NCBI RefSeq assembly: GCF_013402875.1
Contig: NZ_CP058579.1
Location: 3,162,001-3,226,000, forward strand
Source: Halorarum salinum
Lineage (GTDB): Archaea > Halobacteriota > Halobacteria > Halobacteriales > Haloferacaceae
Direction: 5' to 3'
Length of the DNA: 64,000 nucleotides
Shown: positions 3,425 to 36,300 of the stretch, piece after piece
How the letters are laid out: the number at the start of each line of letters is the position of its first letter
Position numbering within the stretch: position 1 is the stretch's first letter
Notes under the pieces: model-generated
The model's database searches: none
What the model was told of the DNA's origin: nothing
Seen by the model: the letters and a program-made list of their open reading frames with translations, nothing else
Position numbers and translations under genes: made by a program

Positions 3425-6163
3425 ATGACCAACGCGAGCCTCACGGACTTCGGTCCGGCCGACGCCGACGAGGGGGACGGCGGGCGACCGGACGAGGAGG
3501 CGGCCTTCGTGGCGGGCGACGGCGCGGGCCACGTCAGCGACGTCGTCGACGCGCAGGACGTCCGGGTGCCGGACGCCGACGGGACGCTCGAGCTGATGGT
3601 GACGGCGGTCGACTACACGGTCGAGGGGAGCGGCGCGACGGAGTACCCCGTCGTGCACGTGTTCGGGCGGACGAGCGACAACGAGGTCGAGCACGTGCGG
3701 GTGCTCGGCACCGAGCCGTACTTCTACGTCCCGACGGCGGACCTGGAGGGCCGGGACCTCCTCGAGGAGTACGACGTCGTCGTCAACACCAGGGAGCGCC
3801 CGCGGGGCGAGGAGGACGCGGAACCGTTCGAGAGCATCCGGGGCGAGGCGGTGACGAAGGTCGTCGCCCGGACCCCGCGGGACGTCGGACAGATCCGGGA
3901 CGACTTCGCCCGGACGTACGAGGCGGACATCCTGTTCCCGAACCGCTTCCTCATCGACAACGGCGTCAGCTCCGGCATCCGGGTCGAGGAGCGGCGCCTC
4001 CCGGACGGACGCCTACAGGTGTTCCCCGGCCACCTCGAACCCGCGGAGGTCGACGCGGACCTCCGGGTGAACTACTTCGACATCGAGGTCGACGACCGCC
4101 GGGGGTTCCCCGAGGACGGCGAGGAACCGATCGTCTGTCTCACCAGCCACGACTCCTACCGCGACGAGTACGTCGCCTGGCTGTACGACGCCCCGGACGG
4201 CGACGCGGTTCCCCCGACCGCGCTCCCGACCTACGAGCCGTACCGGGAGGGACAGGAGATCGAGGTCCGGAGCTTCGAGGACGAGGACGCGATGCTCGAC
4301 GCGTTCCTGACGTACGTCGCCGATACCGACCCGGACGTGCTCACGGGGTGGAACTTCGAGGACTTCGACGCGCCGTACTTCCTCGACCGGTGTGAGGTGC
4401 TGGACGGTGCGAGCGAGTTCGACCTCTCGCCCGACCGCCTCTCGCGCGTGGACGAGACGTGGCGCTCCGGCTGGGGGGGCCCGGACGTGAAGGGCCGGAT
4501 CGTCTTCGACCTGCTGTACGGCTACCAGCGGACGCAGTTCTCCGAACTCGACTCCTACCGGCTGGACGCGGTCGGGGAACTCGAACTCGACGTGGGGAAG
4601 GAGCGGTACACCGGCGACATCGGAACCCTCTGGGAGGAGGACCCCGAGCGGCTGCTGGAGTACAACGTCCGCGACGTGGAACTGTGCGTCGAGATCGACC
4701 GCAAGCAGGACGTCGTCACCTTCTGGGACGAGTCCCGGAAGATCGTCGGCTGCCAGCTCGAGGACGCGCCGACCCCCGGCGACGCGGTCGACATGTACGT
4801 CCTCCACGAGGCGTTCGGCGAGTTCGTCCTGCCGACGAAGGGCCAGCAGGAGGGCGAGGAGTTCGAGGGCGGCGCCGTCTTCGAACCCATCACGGGCGTC
4901 CGCGAGAACGTCACCGTGCTCGACCTGAAGTCGCTGTACCCGATGTGTATGGTGACCATCAACGCCTCGCCGGAGACGATCGTCGAGGATCCCGAGGCGT
5001 ACGACGGAGAGACGTACCGGGCGCCCAACGGCACCCGGTTCCGGAAGGAGCCCGACGGGATGATGCGCGAGATGGTCGACGAGTTGCTCGCCGAGCGCGA
5101 CCGGAAGAAGGCCGCCCGGGACGAGCACGAACCCGGTTCGGCGACCTACCAGCAGTACGACCGCCAGCAGGCGGCCGTGAAGGTGATCATGAACTCGCTG
5201 TACGGCGTCTCCGGCTGGGAGCGCTTCCGCCTGTACGACAAGGAGAACGCCGCGGCGATCACCGCGATGGGCCGGCGCGTCATCGAGTTCACCGAAGAGG
5301 CCGCGAACGAGATCGGCCACGAGGTCGCGTACGGGGACACCGACTCCGTCATGCTCGAACTGGGCCCCGACGTCACCACCGGGGAGGCCATCGAGCAGTC
5401 GTTCGACATCGAGGACCACATCAACGGCCGCTACGACGACTTCGCGCTGGAGGAGCTCGACGCGGAGGAGCACCGCTTCCAGATCGAGTTCGAGAAGCTC
5501 TACCGCCGGTTCTTCCAGGCGGGCAAGAAGAAGCGGTACGCGGGCCACATCGTCTGGAAGGAGGGCAAGGACGTCGACGACGTCGACATCACCGGCTTCG
5601 AGTACAAGCGCTCGGACATCGCGCCGATCACCAAGCGGGTCCAGAAGGACGTCATCGAGATGATCGTCTACGGCGAGGACCTGGCCGACGTGAAGGAGTA
5701 CCTCCACGACGAGATCTCCCGCTTCCAGTCGGGGGACGTGGACCTGGAGGAGGTGGGCATCCCCGGCGGCATCGGCAAGCGGCTGGAGGGCTACGACACC
5801 GACACCGCGCAGGTCCGGGGAGCGAAGTACGCGAACATGCTGCTCGGGACCAACTTCCAGCGCGGGTCGAAGCCGAAGCGGCTCTACCTGGAGAAGGTTC
5901 ACCCCGACTTCTTCCGTCGGATGGAGGAGGAGGGGGGGTTCGACGCGGCGACGGACGACCTCTACCGCGAGTTCAAGCGGAACCCCGACGTCATCTGCTT
6001 CGAGTACGCCGACGAGGTCCCCGAGGAGTTCGAGGTGGACTGGGACAAGATGCTGGAGAAGACACTGAAGGGACCCATCGCCCGCGTCATCGAGGCGCTG
6101 GACATGTCGTGGGACGAGGTCAAGACCGGACAGGAGCAGACGGGACTCGGCTCCTTCGTGTAG
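3425..6163 (+). CDS. polB: Replicative DNA polymerase B (PolB1), intein-free
   Basis: A 912-residue family B polymerase. The exonuclease domain has Exo I YFDIEVD (D219/E221), an Exo II-like TGWNFEDFDAPYF and Exo III YNVRDVEL. The polymerase palm has motif A DLKSLYP (D500), motif B KVIMNSLYG (K586) and motif C YGDTDS (D638/D640), so both activities look intact. The first 45 residues form an acidic haloarchaeal extension. Start 3425 is chosen because a TATA-like box lies 24-29 nt upstream. All three common archaeal polB intein sites (motifs A, B and C) are uninterrupted. It sits head-on to the three small minus-strand genes and upstream of the suf operon, the classical haloarchaeal polB1 location. 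Confidence 0.95.
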   Translation: MTNASLTDFGPADADEGDGGRPDEEAAFVAGDGAGHVSDVVDAQDVRVPDADGTLELMVTAVDYTVEGSGATEYPVVHVFGRTSDNEVEHVRVLGTEPYFYVPTADLEGRDLLEEYDVVVNTRERPRGEEDAEPFESIRGEAVTKVVARTPRDVGQIRDDFARTYEADILFPNRFLIDNGVSSGIRVEERRLPDGRLQVFPGHLEPAEVDADLRVNYFDIEVDDRRGFPEDGEEPIVCLTSHDSYRDEYVAWLYDAPDGDAVPPTALPTYEPYREGQEIEVRSFEDEDAMLDAFLTYVADTDPDVLTGWNFEDFDAPYFLDRCEVLDGASEFDLSPDRLSRVDETWRSGWGGPDVKGRIVFDLLYGYQRTQFSELDSYRLDAVGELELDVGKERYTGDIGTLWEEDPERLLEYNVRDVELCVEIDRKQDVVTFWDESRKIVGCQLEDAPTPGDAVDMYVLHEAFGEFVLPTKGQQEGEEFEGGAVFEPITGVRENVTVLDLKSLYPMCMVTINASPETIVEDPEAYDGETYRAPNGTRFRKEPDGMMREMVDELLAERDRKKAARDEHEPGSATYQQYDRQQAAVKVIMNSLYGVSGWERFRLYDKENAAAITAMGRRVIEFTEEAANEIGHEVAYGDTDSVMLELGPDVTTGEAIEQSFDIEDHINGRYDDFALEELDAEEHRFQIEFEKLYRRFFQAGKKKRYAGHIVWKEGKDVDDVDITGFEYKRSDIAPITKRVQKDVIEMIVYGEDLADVKEYLHDEISRFQSGDVDLEEVGIPGGIGKRLEGYDTDTAQVRGAKYANMLLGTNFQRGSKPKRLYLEKVHPDFFRRMEEEGGFDAATDDLYREFKRNPDVICFEYADEVPEEFEVDWDKMLEKTLKGPIARVIEALDMSWDEVKTGQEQTGLGSFV

Positions 6164-32862: not shown

Positions 32863-33048
32863 CCGGCCGGGCCGGGTAGCCGTCGACGGGTAGCGACCGG
32901 TTGCAGCCGTTTAGTTACGCCGCCGTCGGCCGCCGGTCGACGGGTCAAAACCGCGGGACTCGACGGGGTCGAACCGGTCCGGAGGCGTTTCACTTCCGTC
33001 CCGGTGGTCCGGGTCGGGGTTTTGACGGAAGCCGTCGAACGCGGTGAC

Positions 33049-33720
33049 ATGTTCGATCGCACACCGGATCGGCCCGAGCCGACGACCGACCTGCCGACCC
33101 TCGAGCCGGGGGTGACGGTCCTGCGCCCGCCCGACCCGCGTTCGACCGCGCTCCACCGGCTCGTCGCGGAGACGCTGGCGGGCGGGGGCGGTCCGGCCTA
33201 CTGGGTGGACGCGCGCAACGCGGCGAACACCCACGCGCTGTACGACGTCGCGCCGTCGCGTCGGACGCTGTCCGGACTCGTGGTGGCCCGGGCGTTCACC
33301 GCCTACCAGCACGCCGGGTTGATCCACGAACTCCCGCGGCGCGTCCGCCCGGGGACGCGGCTCGTCGTCGCGCCGAACGTCGCCGCGCTCTACCGCGACG
33401 GCGACGTGGCCGACGCGGCGGCCACACGACTGCTCGAGGCGAGCCTCGGCTACCTGGCCGAACTGGCGGACGCGCTCGACTGCCCGGTCCTGACCTCCGC
33501 GACCGGCGAGGACGAACTCGCCGCGCGGGCCGTCGACGTCGCCGACGCCGTGGTCGACTGCGAGCGCACCCGGCTCGGGCTGACCTACGACGCGCCCGGC
33601 TTCACGCCGTCGGGCTACCACCGCGGCGGCTACTGGCAGACCACGATTCCGTACTGGGTGGACCTGTTCGGCCGGGTCACGCCGCACGAACCGCCGGTCA
33701 CGCCGGAGGTGTTCGCGTGA
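33049..33720 (+). CDS. Degenerate RecA/RadA-like protein in the PolB2 operon
   Basis: 223 residues. The fold pattern follows RecA/RadB: strand GVTVLRPPDPRSTALHRLV, where the P-loop should be but without GxxxxGK[ST]; then AYWVDARNAANTHALYDVAP, corresponding to the strand after the Walker A helix; LSGLVVARAFTAYQHAGLI; and TRLVVAPNVAALYRDG in place of Walker B with no Asp. It therefore probably does not hydrolyse ATP but could bind RadA or ssDNA. It is the first gene of a four-ORF operon ending in PolB2. It is analogous in position to ImuA-type RecA-like proteins of bacterial mutasomes; that is inference. Confidence 0.75.
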   Translation: MFDRTPDRPEPTTDLPTLEPGVTVLRPPDPRSTALHRLVAETLAGGGGPAYWVDARNAANTHALYDVAPSRRTLSGLVVARAFTAYQHAGLIHELPRRVRPGTRLVVAPNVAALYRDGDVADAAATRLLEASLGYLAELADALDCPVLTSATGEDELAARAVDVADAVVDCERTRLGLTYDAPGFTPSGYHRGGYWQTTIPYWVDLFGRVTPHEPPVTPEVFA

Positions 33721-33818
33721 CTCGGAACCGGGACGCGCGTCGCTCGCGCCGGGGGCCACGCGGCAGGGGCAAGGGGATGCAGGTCCAGACGGTGCAGCGT
33801 CGGGAGGTGTCCGGCTGA
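33717..33818 (+). CDS. 33-residue basic peptide linking the operon genes
   Basis: GTG 33717 overlaps the previous stop (GTGA). The frame ends in TGA 33816-33818, which overlaps the next ATG (TGATG). The peptide is very basic, starting MTRNRDARRSRRGPRGRGKG and ending MQVQTVQRREVSG. Both junctions match the overlaps used elsewhere in this operon, which argues for translation, but no homology is known to me and chance remains possible. Confidence 0.4.
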   Translation: MTRNRDARRSRRGPRGRGKGMQVQTVQRREVSG

Positions 33819-34141
33819 TGGGCAGGACCAACCCCACCTACCGGAACTTCCTCGAGTCGTACGAGTCCGAGTGGGCGCCGTTCCGACGCGCGCTCCGGCG
33901 GCAGTACCGGAGCGACTTCGACCGGTTGTTCGAGCGCGCCGCCGAACACGCCGGGGCCGCCGGGATGCAGAACCCCCCGGACCCGACGGAGGCGCTCCTG
34001 CTCTCGCTCTCGGTCGCCCACGAGGCCGAACTCCGCCGGCTCCGCGATCGGGTGGAGGCGCTGGAGGCGGAGGGAACCCCGGAGGACGGAGGGACGTCCG
34101 AGGGCGCGGGGCCGTCGGAGCGCGGGGAGGACGGGCCGTGA
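33818..34141 (+). CDS. Small helical protein of the PolB2 operon
   Basis: 107 residues. The N-terminal 85 are helical and charged (NPTYRNFLESYESEWAPFRR, YRSDFDRLFERAAEH) and include PDPTEALLLSLSVAHEAELR leading into a short coiled coil (RRLRDRVEALEAEG). The tail is Gly/Glu/Ser low complexity. There is no enzyme motif. Sandwiched by overlaps between the RecA-like and PolB2 genes, it is probably an accessory or adaptor subunit. Confidence 0.7.
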   Translation: MGRTNPTYRNFLESYESEWAPFRRALRRQYRSDFDRLFERAAEHAGAAGMQNPPDPTEALLLSLSVAHEAELRRLRDRVEALEAEGTPEDGGTSEGAGPSERGEDGP

Positions 34142-36300
34142 CCGTCACGGTCGACTTCCGCGACGGCGACGCGGTCGTCTGGACGCGGACCGCCGACGGC
34201 GTCGAGCGCGAGCGGGTGGCCGGCTACGAGCCGTCGCTGCTCGTCGCCGGCCCGACCGACGCCCGGGAGCACCTCGCGGCCTGGCTCGGCGACGACGACC
34301 GGGTGGCGGGAACGGGGACGGTGGAGCGCTACCGGTCGCTGGCAGCGCGCGAGCCATCCTCCATGCTCCGTGTCGACCTGACCCGGCCGGACGCGGCCGG
34401 CCCGGTCGCCCGTCGGGTGGAACTCGAGTTCGAGCCGGCCCACTGCACCCCGTGGGACCTGCGGCTCTACGACGTGGACCTCTCGCCGGGGTTCCGCTTC
34501 CACCTCGACACCGGACGGAACCCCGCACTCGAGGAGGACCCGGTGACGCTCCGGATCGACCTCCCCGAACCCGCGCTTTCGGCGAGGGACGCCGGCGGCC
34601 TGCGTGTCGAGGGTAACCCCCTCGCGGACGACGAGCGGGACGCCGTCGAGGAGCTGTTCGACCGGCTCCGGGCGACCGACCCGGACGTGCTCGTGGCGTC
34701 GAGCGCGGACCTCGTGCCCGTGGTGTCCCGGCGGGCCGAGGCGCTCGACGTCCCGTTCGCGTGGGGCCGTGACTCGAACGGGACGAACGCTGCCGGGGAC
34801 GCGAGCCCTTCCGTGGACGAGTCGGACCCGAACGAGCGCGGCTGGCGACGGCTCGCGGGTGAGAACACCTACGAGGGCTACGGGCGGGTCGGCCACTCGC
34901 CGGCGCGGTACTCGATTCCCGGCCGAGCCATCGTCGACCGGTGGAACAGCTTCATGTGGGGGAAGGCCGGACTCGACGGCCTGCTGTACCTCGTCGAGCG
35001 GTCGTGGCGGCCCATCCAGGAGGCGGGGTGGGCGAGCATCGGGAGCGTCCTCACGTCGATGCAGATCAGGCACGCCAGGGCCCGGTACGTCCCGGCGCCG
35101 TGGCGGCCGTGGGAACACGAGCGGTTCAAGCCGGTCCGGACGCTCCACGAGGCCGACCGCGGCGGGGTGACGCTCGGCTCGGCGGTCGGCTACCACGAGG
35201 ACGTCGTCGAACTCGACTTCGCGTCGCTGTACCCGACGATCATCCGCGAGCACAACGTCAGCGCGGAGACGGTGCGGTGTGACTGTTGTAGCCGGCGGGA
35301 CGTCCCCGAACTCGGCTACGGCATCTGCGACCGGGAGGGGTTCCTCCCGAACGTGCTCGCCCGGCTCATCGACGACCGCGCGGGGTTCAAGGGGGCCGCC
35401 GTCGAGGGCGAGGAGGCGGCCGGGGCCAAGGCGGACGCCATCAAGTGGGTGCTCGTCTCCTGTTTCGGCTACCAGGGCTACCGCAACGCGAAGTTCGGCC
35501 GCATCGAGTGTCACGAGGCGATCAACGCCATCGCCCGGGACACCCTGCTCGACGCCAAGGGCGCGCTGGAGGCGGGCGGCTGGGAGGTGCTCCACGCCAT
35601 CGTGGACAGCGTCTGGATCCGGGAGGACGAACCGGGCGCGACCCCGCCCGAGGAACTGGCGGGAGCGGTGAGCGCGGCCGCGAACGTCCCGCTCGAACTG
35701 GAGTCGACCTACGACTGGGTGTGTTTCGTCCCCAAACACGACTCGAACGCGGGCGCGCTGACGAAGTACTTCGGCCGGAAACGGGACGGGTCGTACAGGG
35801 TCCGCGGCATCGAGTGCCGCCAGCGGAGCACGCCCGCGTTCGTCGCGGACGCCCAGCGGGACCTGATCCGGGCGGTCGACGCCGAGCGGTCGCCCCGGGC
35901 CGTCCGGGACCGCCTCGCCCGCCACCTCCGTCGGCTCGACGGCGGCGACGTGGACCCGGCGGACCTCGTCGTCACGACGCGCGCCACGAGGGGACCCGGG
36001 GAGTACGAGGCCGACACGCTCACCGCGGCGGCGCTCGACCGCCACTCGCACCTCGGCGTCGGGCGTTCTGCCGGCCAGTCGGTCCGGTACGTCGTGGTCG
36101 ACGACGGGGCCCGCGAGCGCGGCCGGGTTCGGCTCCCGTTCGAGGAGCCCGGCGGCTACGACGAGGGGTTCTATCGAGAGCTGCTGGTTCGAGCGGCCGC
36201 GAGCGTGGTGTCGCCGTTCGGCTGGGATCGCGACCGGCTCGACCGGGAACTCTCCTCCGAGCGCGACGCGAGGCTCGGCTCCTTCGGCGTTCGCGGGTAG
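34138..36300 (+). CDS. polB2: Family B DNA polymerase PolB2 (divergent, exonuclease motifs absent)
   Basis: 720 residues from GTG 34138, overlapping the previous stop (GTGA). The polymerase half shows motif A ELDFASLYPTII (D360 kept) and motif B IKWVLVSCFGYQGYRNAKFG (K436 kept, Asn replaced by Ser). Motif C reads HAIVDSVW, where the first Asp of YGDTDS is Ile488 and D490 is kept. KYFGRKRDGSYRVRGIECRQ follows the fingers-thumb pattern. No DxE Exo I, Exo II or Exo III motif is present in the N-terminal half. Archaeal PolB2 proteins of this sort were long viewed as inactivated, and a Sulfolobus member (Dpo2) is implicated in damage tolerance. A repair or translesion role is the likely one here. 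Confidence 0.85.
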   Translation: MTVTVDFRDGDAVVWTRTADGVERERVAGYEPSLLVAGPTDAREHLAAWLGDDDRVAGTGTVERYRSLAAREPSSMLRVDLTRPDAAGPVARRVELEFEPAHCTPWDLRLYDVDLSPGFRFHLDTGRNPALEEDPVTLRIDLPEPALSARDAGGLRVEGNPLADDERDAVEELFDRLRATDPDVLVASSADLVPVVSRRAEALDVPFAWGRDSNGTNAAGDASPSVDESDPNERGWRRLAGENTYEGYGRVGHSPARYSIPGRAIVDRWNSFMWGKAGLDGLLYLVERSWRPIQEAGWASIGSVLTSMQIRHARARYVPAPWRPWEHERFKPVRTLHEADRGGVTLGSAVGYHEDVVELDFASLYPTIIREHNVSAETVRCDCCSRRDVPELGYGICDREGFLPNVLARLIDDRAGFKGAAVEGEEAAGAKADAIKWVLVSCFGYQGYRNAKFGRIECHEAINAIARDTLLDAKGALEAGGWEVLHAIVDSVWIREDEPGATPPEELAGAVSAAANVPLELESTYDWVCFVPKHDSNAGALTKYFGRKRDGSYRVRGIECRQRSTPAFVADAQRDLIRAVDAERSPRAVRDRLARHLRRLDGGDVDPADLVVTTRATRGPGEYEADTLTAAALDRHSHLGVGRSAGQSVRYVVVDDGARERGRVRLPFEEPGGYDEGFYRELLVRAAASVVSPFGWDRDRLDRELSSERDARLGSFGVRG

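Follow-up and report, generated by a model that had tools for sequence, protein, structure and literature searches.

The 64,000-nucleotide stretch of Halorarum salinum DNA analysed here (NZ_CP058579.1, positions 3,162,001 to 3,226,000 of the forward strand; hereafter the window) carries what is very probably a haloarchaeal version of the PolB2 mutasome operon already described; the operon is probably inducible by DNA damage, and its spacer ORF is unlikely to represent a conserved subunit. The enzyme system is already known, and what the analysis adds is the link to a promoter. An inactivated RadA family, arCOG07300 and PolB2 have been assigned to one predicted operon, haloarchaea included (Makarova 2014, PMC4104785), and the parts were subsequently named iRadA and PPB2 and the complex a mutasome, modelled as a heteropentamer with single copies of PolB2 and iRadA and three of PPB2 (Timinskas 2025, PMC11791011). 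An earlier note on this DNA had suggested that the haloarchaeal four-part form was undescribed; a claim of novelty in haloarchaea is not supported, given that haloarchaeal arCOG07763, arCOG07300 and PolB2 were covered in 2014.

PMC11791011 treats gene order, loss of DxD, a D(K/R) motif and the MGRT arm as diagnostic, and all of these were found in the window operon along with the RadA fold. The families (arCOG07763/04294/08101, arCOG07300 and PolB2), their order, the MGRT arm, the lost DxD and the P-loop-less RadA relative are shared with the published operons, from which the present one differs in two respects: a 97-nt spacer containing a 33-codon ORF, confined to the genus, and a promoter box shared with radA, which was not found reported for PolB2 operons in the literature searched. 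The coordinates of all features are collected in Table 1.

Table 1. Features of the PolB2 operon, in window positions.
Feature	Position	Strand	Description
Promoter box TTTCACTTCC	32988-32997	+	radA-type, TTTCACTTYC
TATA-like TTTT	33020-33023	+	26-29 nt 5' of ATG 33049; GGGGTTTT kept in congeners
iRadA (ORF1)	33049-33720	+	223 aa
Spacer ORF	33717-33818	+	33 codons, GTG start, in 97-nt spacer
PPB2 (ORF3)	33818-34141	+	107 aa
PolB2 (ORF4)	34138-36300	+	720 aa, GTG start

Four overlapping ORFs had been described in the earlier note and were recovered at these positions, with junctions of 4 nt (GTGA, 33717-33720), 1 nt (TGATG, 33816-33820) and 4 nt (GTGA, 34138-34141). The open frame of PolB2 extends farther upstream, overlapping PPB2, and the GTG at 34138 is its likely start. 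A gene-order search across the haloarchaea, which the note had proposed, found the order and co-orientation of iRadA, PPB2 and PolB2 kept in approximately 90 loci, and because of this retention the chain, judged from gene order, is far beyond chance.

As a single sequence, the ORF1 product had no family match in Pfam or NCBIfam. A profile of the iRadA family (40 relatives) did match RAD51/RadA chains (best E 3e-11), and an AlphaFold model of the protein (mean pLDDT 88, pTM 0.82) matched RadA, Rad51 and Dmc1 in Foldseek searches (best E 7e-10, TM about 0.55-0.63). The entire protein contains no lysine and consequently lacks a Walker A motif or P-loop. Both the predicted RadA/Rad51 fold without a P-loop and the RecA-like outcome expected of structure prediction were therefore borne out by the profile, the model and the absence of lysine. 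What is retained is the RadA/Rad51 core fold, with the N-terminal domain and the ATPase residues absent. The tails of iRadA differ in length and sequence among relatives, and no clamp-binding motif was seen in the tail of the window's protein.

The third ORF, anticipated as a small helical partner of 107 residues, proved to be PPB2, with an all-helical predicted structure and the N-terminus MGRTNPTYR, which contains the MGRT motif of the arCOG07300 type. Residues M1, G2, T4 and R9 were invariant in an alignment of 31 sequences. PPB2 had no Pfam or NCBIfam family match, and a fold search found no solved structure with significant similarity (best E 3.6); the likeness to a sigma-factor N-terminal region reported in PMC11791011 appeared here only among the insignificant fold hits.

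The identification of ORF4 as a divergent family B polymerase was confirmed by NCBIfam NF004418 (type B DNA polymerase), which it passes at 748 bits against a cut-off of 692, and the Pfam DNA_pol_B family (PF00136) was matched at 53 bits. The first Asp of the DxD motif was lost in 30 of 30 aligned haloarchaeal PolB2 proteins, reading IVDS in that of the window, and the catalytic residues D360, K436 and D490 were invariant in the same number. The D(K/R) motif that contacts the PPB2 arm is represented by D267-R268; D267 was at least 90% conserved across the 30-protein alignment, and the following R was present in many rows, not all. At its C-terminus (window 36250-36297) the protein ends RDARLGSFG, and a similar LxxF or LxxY closes most of its haloarchaeal relatives; such tails weakly resemble a PCNA-binding motif. 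A second B-family polymerase, with a far stronger DNA_pol_B match (161 bits) than that of PolB2, lies at window 4820-5812 (+) and is probably the replicative PolB3.

Loss of catalytic residues had first led to the inference that the operon is a degenerate remnant, in which PolB2 is inactive and serves solely as scaffold or regulator. The missing first Asp of DxD and the low DNA_pol_B score are in keeping with this, but the other catalytic positions are invariant across 30 sequences, the ORFs are intact with a strong codon-position bias, and the Dpo2 (PolB2) of Sulfolobus, which has the same DxD loss, is robustly active as a mismatch extender polymerase without exonuclease (PMC8764526), so that a remnant appears very improbable. 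Dpo2 belongs to the same polymerase family; it is crenarchaeal and a biochemically demonstrated extender. Sulfolobus PolB2 is also reported to be induced by damage and required for targeted mutagenesis (PMC11791011). Halobacterium NRC-1 tolerates the loss of polB2 (PMC1906834), and a deletion was reported possible in H. volcanii, which fits a non-essential translesion enzyme and proves nothing.

The mutasome-like logic proposed in the earlier note stood, in that PolB2, a P-loop-less RadA relative and a helical partner are all present; its choice of ImuA-ImuB-DnaE2 as the parallel did not, the published parallel being Pol V (UmuC, a UmuD' dimer and RecA; PMC11791011). That likeness consists of a polymerase, a small partner with an inserted arm and a RecA-fold subunit; Pol V differs in having a Y-family polymerase and an active RecA, and the polymerase and small partner of the two systems are non-homologous. 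A relationship by descent with ImuA-ImuB-DnaE2 could draw on the fact that one operon combines a polymerase with an adaptor and a RecA-fold partner. The polymerase is nevertheless of family B and not a C-family DnaE2, and the 107-residue helical partner, with no family match, is not like the Y-family-like ImuB; there is virtually no chance of such a descent, homology being rejected by the polymerase family and only the analogy being kept.

The same genome contains further copies of these genes. A second complete iRadA-PPB2-PolB2 operon is present at C1:127724-130859 (-), with a PolB2 49% and an iRadA 38% identical to those of the window and a promoter with GTTCACTTTCACCG. A PPB2-iRadA pair with PPB2 first, two ACTTTCACCG repeats upstream and no PolB2 match in the adjoining stretch examined lies at C1:3090498-3091606 (+); PMC4104785 notes that several haloarchaea carry additional two-gene copies. 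An iRadA gene fragment (36% identity over 64 residues, with an internal TAA) was found at C1:989642-989833 (+).

The earlier note had further proposed a haloarchaeal four-part form with a conserved peptide, encoded by the 33-codon ORF. This was examined in 96 distinct iRadA ends outside the window, of which five had no classifiable PPB2 start, leaving 91 comparison junctions. In 89 of these, the PPB2 start falls within -14 to +6 nt of the iRadA stop; iRadA thus abuts or overlaps PPB2, and a peptide-sized gap is absent. The two exceptions were the two congeners compared, whose spacers measure 67 and 46 nt. The 33-codon ORF is accordingly absent from 89 of 89 classifiable junctions outside the genus, and the four-part complex is rejected on these junctions.

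Within the genus, a spacer ORF with a GTGA start and a TGATG end was found in all three congeners (33, 23 and 16 codons), differing in length by in-frame steps of 30 and 21 nt, and in the window GC3 is higher in its frame than in the other two. These observations would accord with a real, genus-specific fourth subunit, a basic peptide that binds DNA or protein. The peptide has 11 K+R against 2 D+E, however, and its neighbours are acidic; there is no clear residue conservation across the three congeners, and GC content by codon position is not consistently coding, the coding-like pattern being absent in one of them (G104). A stop-free frame of 33-codon length was obtained in 89% of shuffles of the spacer (89-100% over the congeners) and, because such frames are expected in GC-rich DNA, is little evidence of a gene; retention of the frame in both congeners would occur by chance about once in nine cases. 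From these comparisons, the 33-codon ORF as a gene is not supported, a genus-specific subunit seems very improbable, and a conserved subunit gene is unlikely because of the junctions without space, the lack of similarity, the non-coding GC pattern, the shuffles and the chance of one in nine.

The spacer ORF may instead act as a translational bridge that couples PPB2 to iRadA, its product being irrelevant, in replacement of the usual overlap and possibly after a frameshift had shortened the iRadA tail. Stop-start overlaps occur at both ends in three of three congeners, iRadA elsewhere runs straight into PPB2, and iRadA tails are variable. On the other side, the in-frame retention may be the same one-in-nine coincidence, and a frameshifted iRadA tail, sought in all frames of the spacer in three congeners, was not recognisable by any consistent coding pattern or similarity; we put this reading slightly short of an even chance. 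The bridge reading applies to the spacer alone and does not conflict with the PolB2 mutasome as the explanation of the operon, in which the 33-codon ORF would be a genus-specific spacer doing no more than pass ribosomes on from the end of iRadA to the start of PPB2.

The promoter of the operon suggests a link to DNA damage. In Halobacterium, a UV-B box TTTCACTTTCA lies 5' of the TATA box of the UV-induced radA1 and is found also at top6B, vng17 and vng280, and it recurs in the radA promoters of other haloarchaea (Boubriak, PMC2556686). The box upstream of iRadA has the same core and likewise precedes a TATA-like element; polB2 is unmentioned in that study, whereas here the box precedes the PolB2 operon, and a literature search retrieved no paper linking a TTTCACTTYC-type box with PolB2. 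The position of the TATA-like element relative to the ATG fits a putative leaderless transcript from 33049. A pattern search of the whole genome found 13 TTTCACTTYC sites, including the promoters of radA (TIGR02236), replication factor A (NF005553) and the PolB2 operon. The box was present 5' of radA, the PolB2 operon and a 59-codon ORF in three of three congeners, and 5' of replication factor A in two of three. In the window the box occurs once, as TTTCACTTCC, ahead of a weak TTTT in the TATA position, whereas most radA promoters have the tandem form. As the box is common to the radA and replication factor A promoters, the PolB2 operon is probably induced by DNA damage through it. The 59-codon ORF, at approximately C1 3801757 behind a perfect CACTTTCACTTTCACTCCG box, is a candidate small damage-response protein.

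A promoter survey was conducted on the regions 5' of 95 distinct iRadA genes, with 653 other genes in the same loci for comparison, and two tandem elements emerged. Sites of class A, the radA-type box family, were found at 24 of 95 iRadA genes and six of 653 others, and those of class B, GGAA-N3-6-GGAA[AC] (tandem CGGAA, with the consensus TTTCGGAANTTCCGGAAACG then CTTAT), at 44 of 95 and 23 of 653, counts that derive from patterns written after inspection of the data, except for TTTCACTTYC itself (14 of 95). The two classes occurred together in none of the 95 loci when about 11 were expected (p 1e-8), although the loci are related by descent and the p-values of the operator survey hence overstate the evidence. 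Sixteen loci outside the pattern-building, all drawn with a class B query, included nine matches to class B and none to class A. Among 30 readable genomes (one further genome was unreadable), radA promoters were of class A in 25, regardless of the class of PolB2, and of class B in none.

Class B operons also differ in their surroundings. A gene with Cdc6 lid and AAA matches, on the same strand and at most 1.3 kb upstream, was found in 20 of 32 class B loci as opposed to none of 12 of class A (p 1e-4, overstated by descent in the same manner), and the window operon, of class A, has an amine-oxidase-type gene at that position instead. Orc1/Cdc6 genes are known to be enriched near polB2, with a role in the damage response cited (PMC11791011), and we infer that an Orc1/Cdc6-type protein may regulate the class B operons. 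In four other genomes the strict CGGAA pattern gave four sites only, including those 5' of a family-less 182-residue protein and of an integrase. It appears evenly balanced whether the haloarchaeal PolB2 operons form a damage regulon under one of two mutually exclusive operators, a radA-type ACTTTCACTTTC box or a tandem CGGAA, the latter often behind a candidate Orc1/Cdc6 regulator.

Under the proposed mechanism, damage would cause RadA, replication factor A and the mutasome to be made together, and the ORF overlaps suggest that iRadA, PPB2 and PolB2 would be translated as a coupled chain. PolB2 would serve as a B-family translesion polymerase in which, as the alignment demonstrates, the first Asp of DxD is lost. 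Following the published model, iRadA, without ATP binding by a P-loop, is probably a fixed subunit gripped by PolB2 in the manner of RadA protomers, and PPB2 is probably a trimer with its MGRT arm wedged between PolB2, iRadA and the primer-template. By extrapolation from Dpo2 alone and from these models, PolB2, with a built-in ATP-independent iRadA and the PPB2 arm near the primer, may extend termini opposite lesions.

Comparative genomics and work on Sulfolobus have made the PolB2 system known, but it has hardly been studied in the haloarchaea, where genetics is easy. The junction data set right the view that the haloarchaeal complex has four parts. If the radA-type box acts as proposed, the mutasome would be under the control that governs radA and, in this genus, the replication factor A gene; a regulon with two operators, if true, would give haloarchaea an equivalent of SOS control over mutagenesis. 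With a radA-type box set against CGGAA and Orc1/Cdc6, how UV mutagenesis is switched in haloarchaea would become a question of promoters and deletions.
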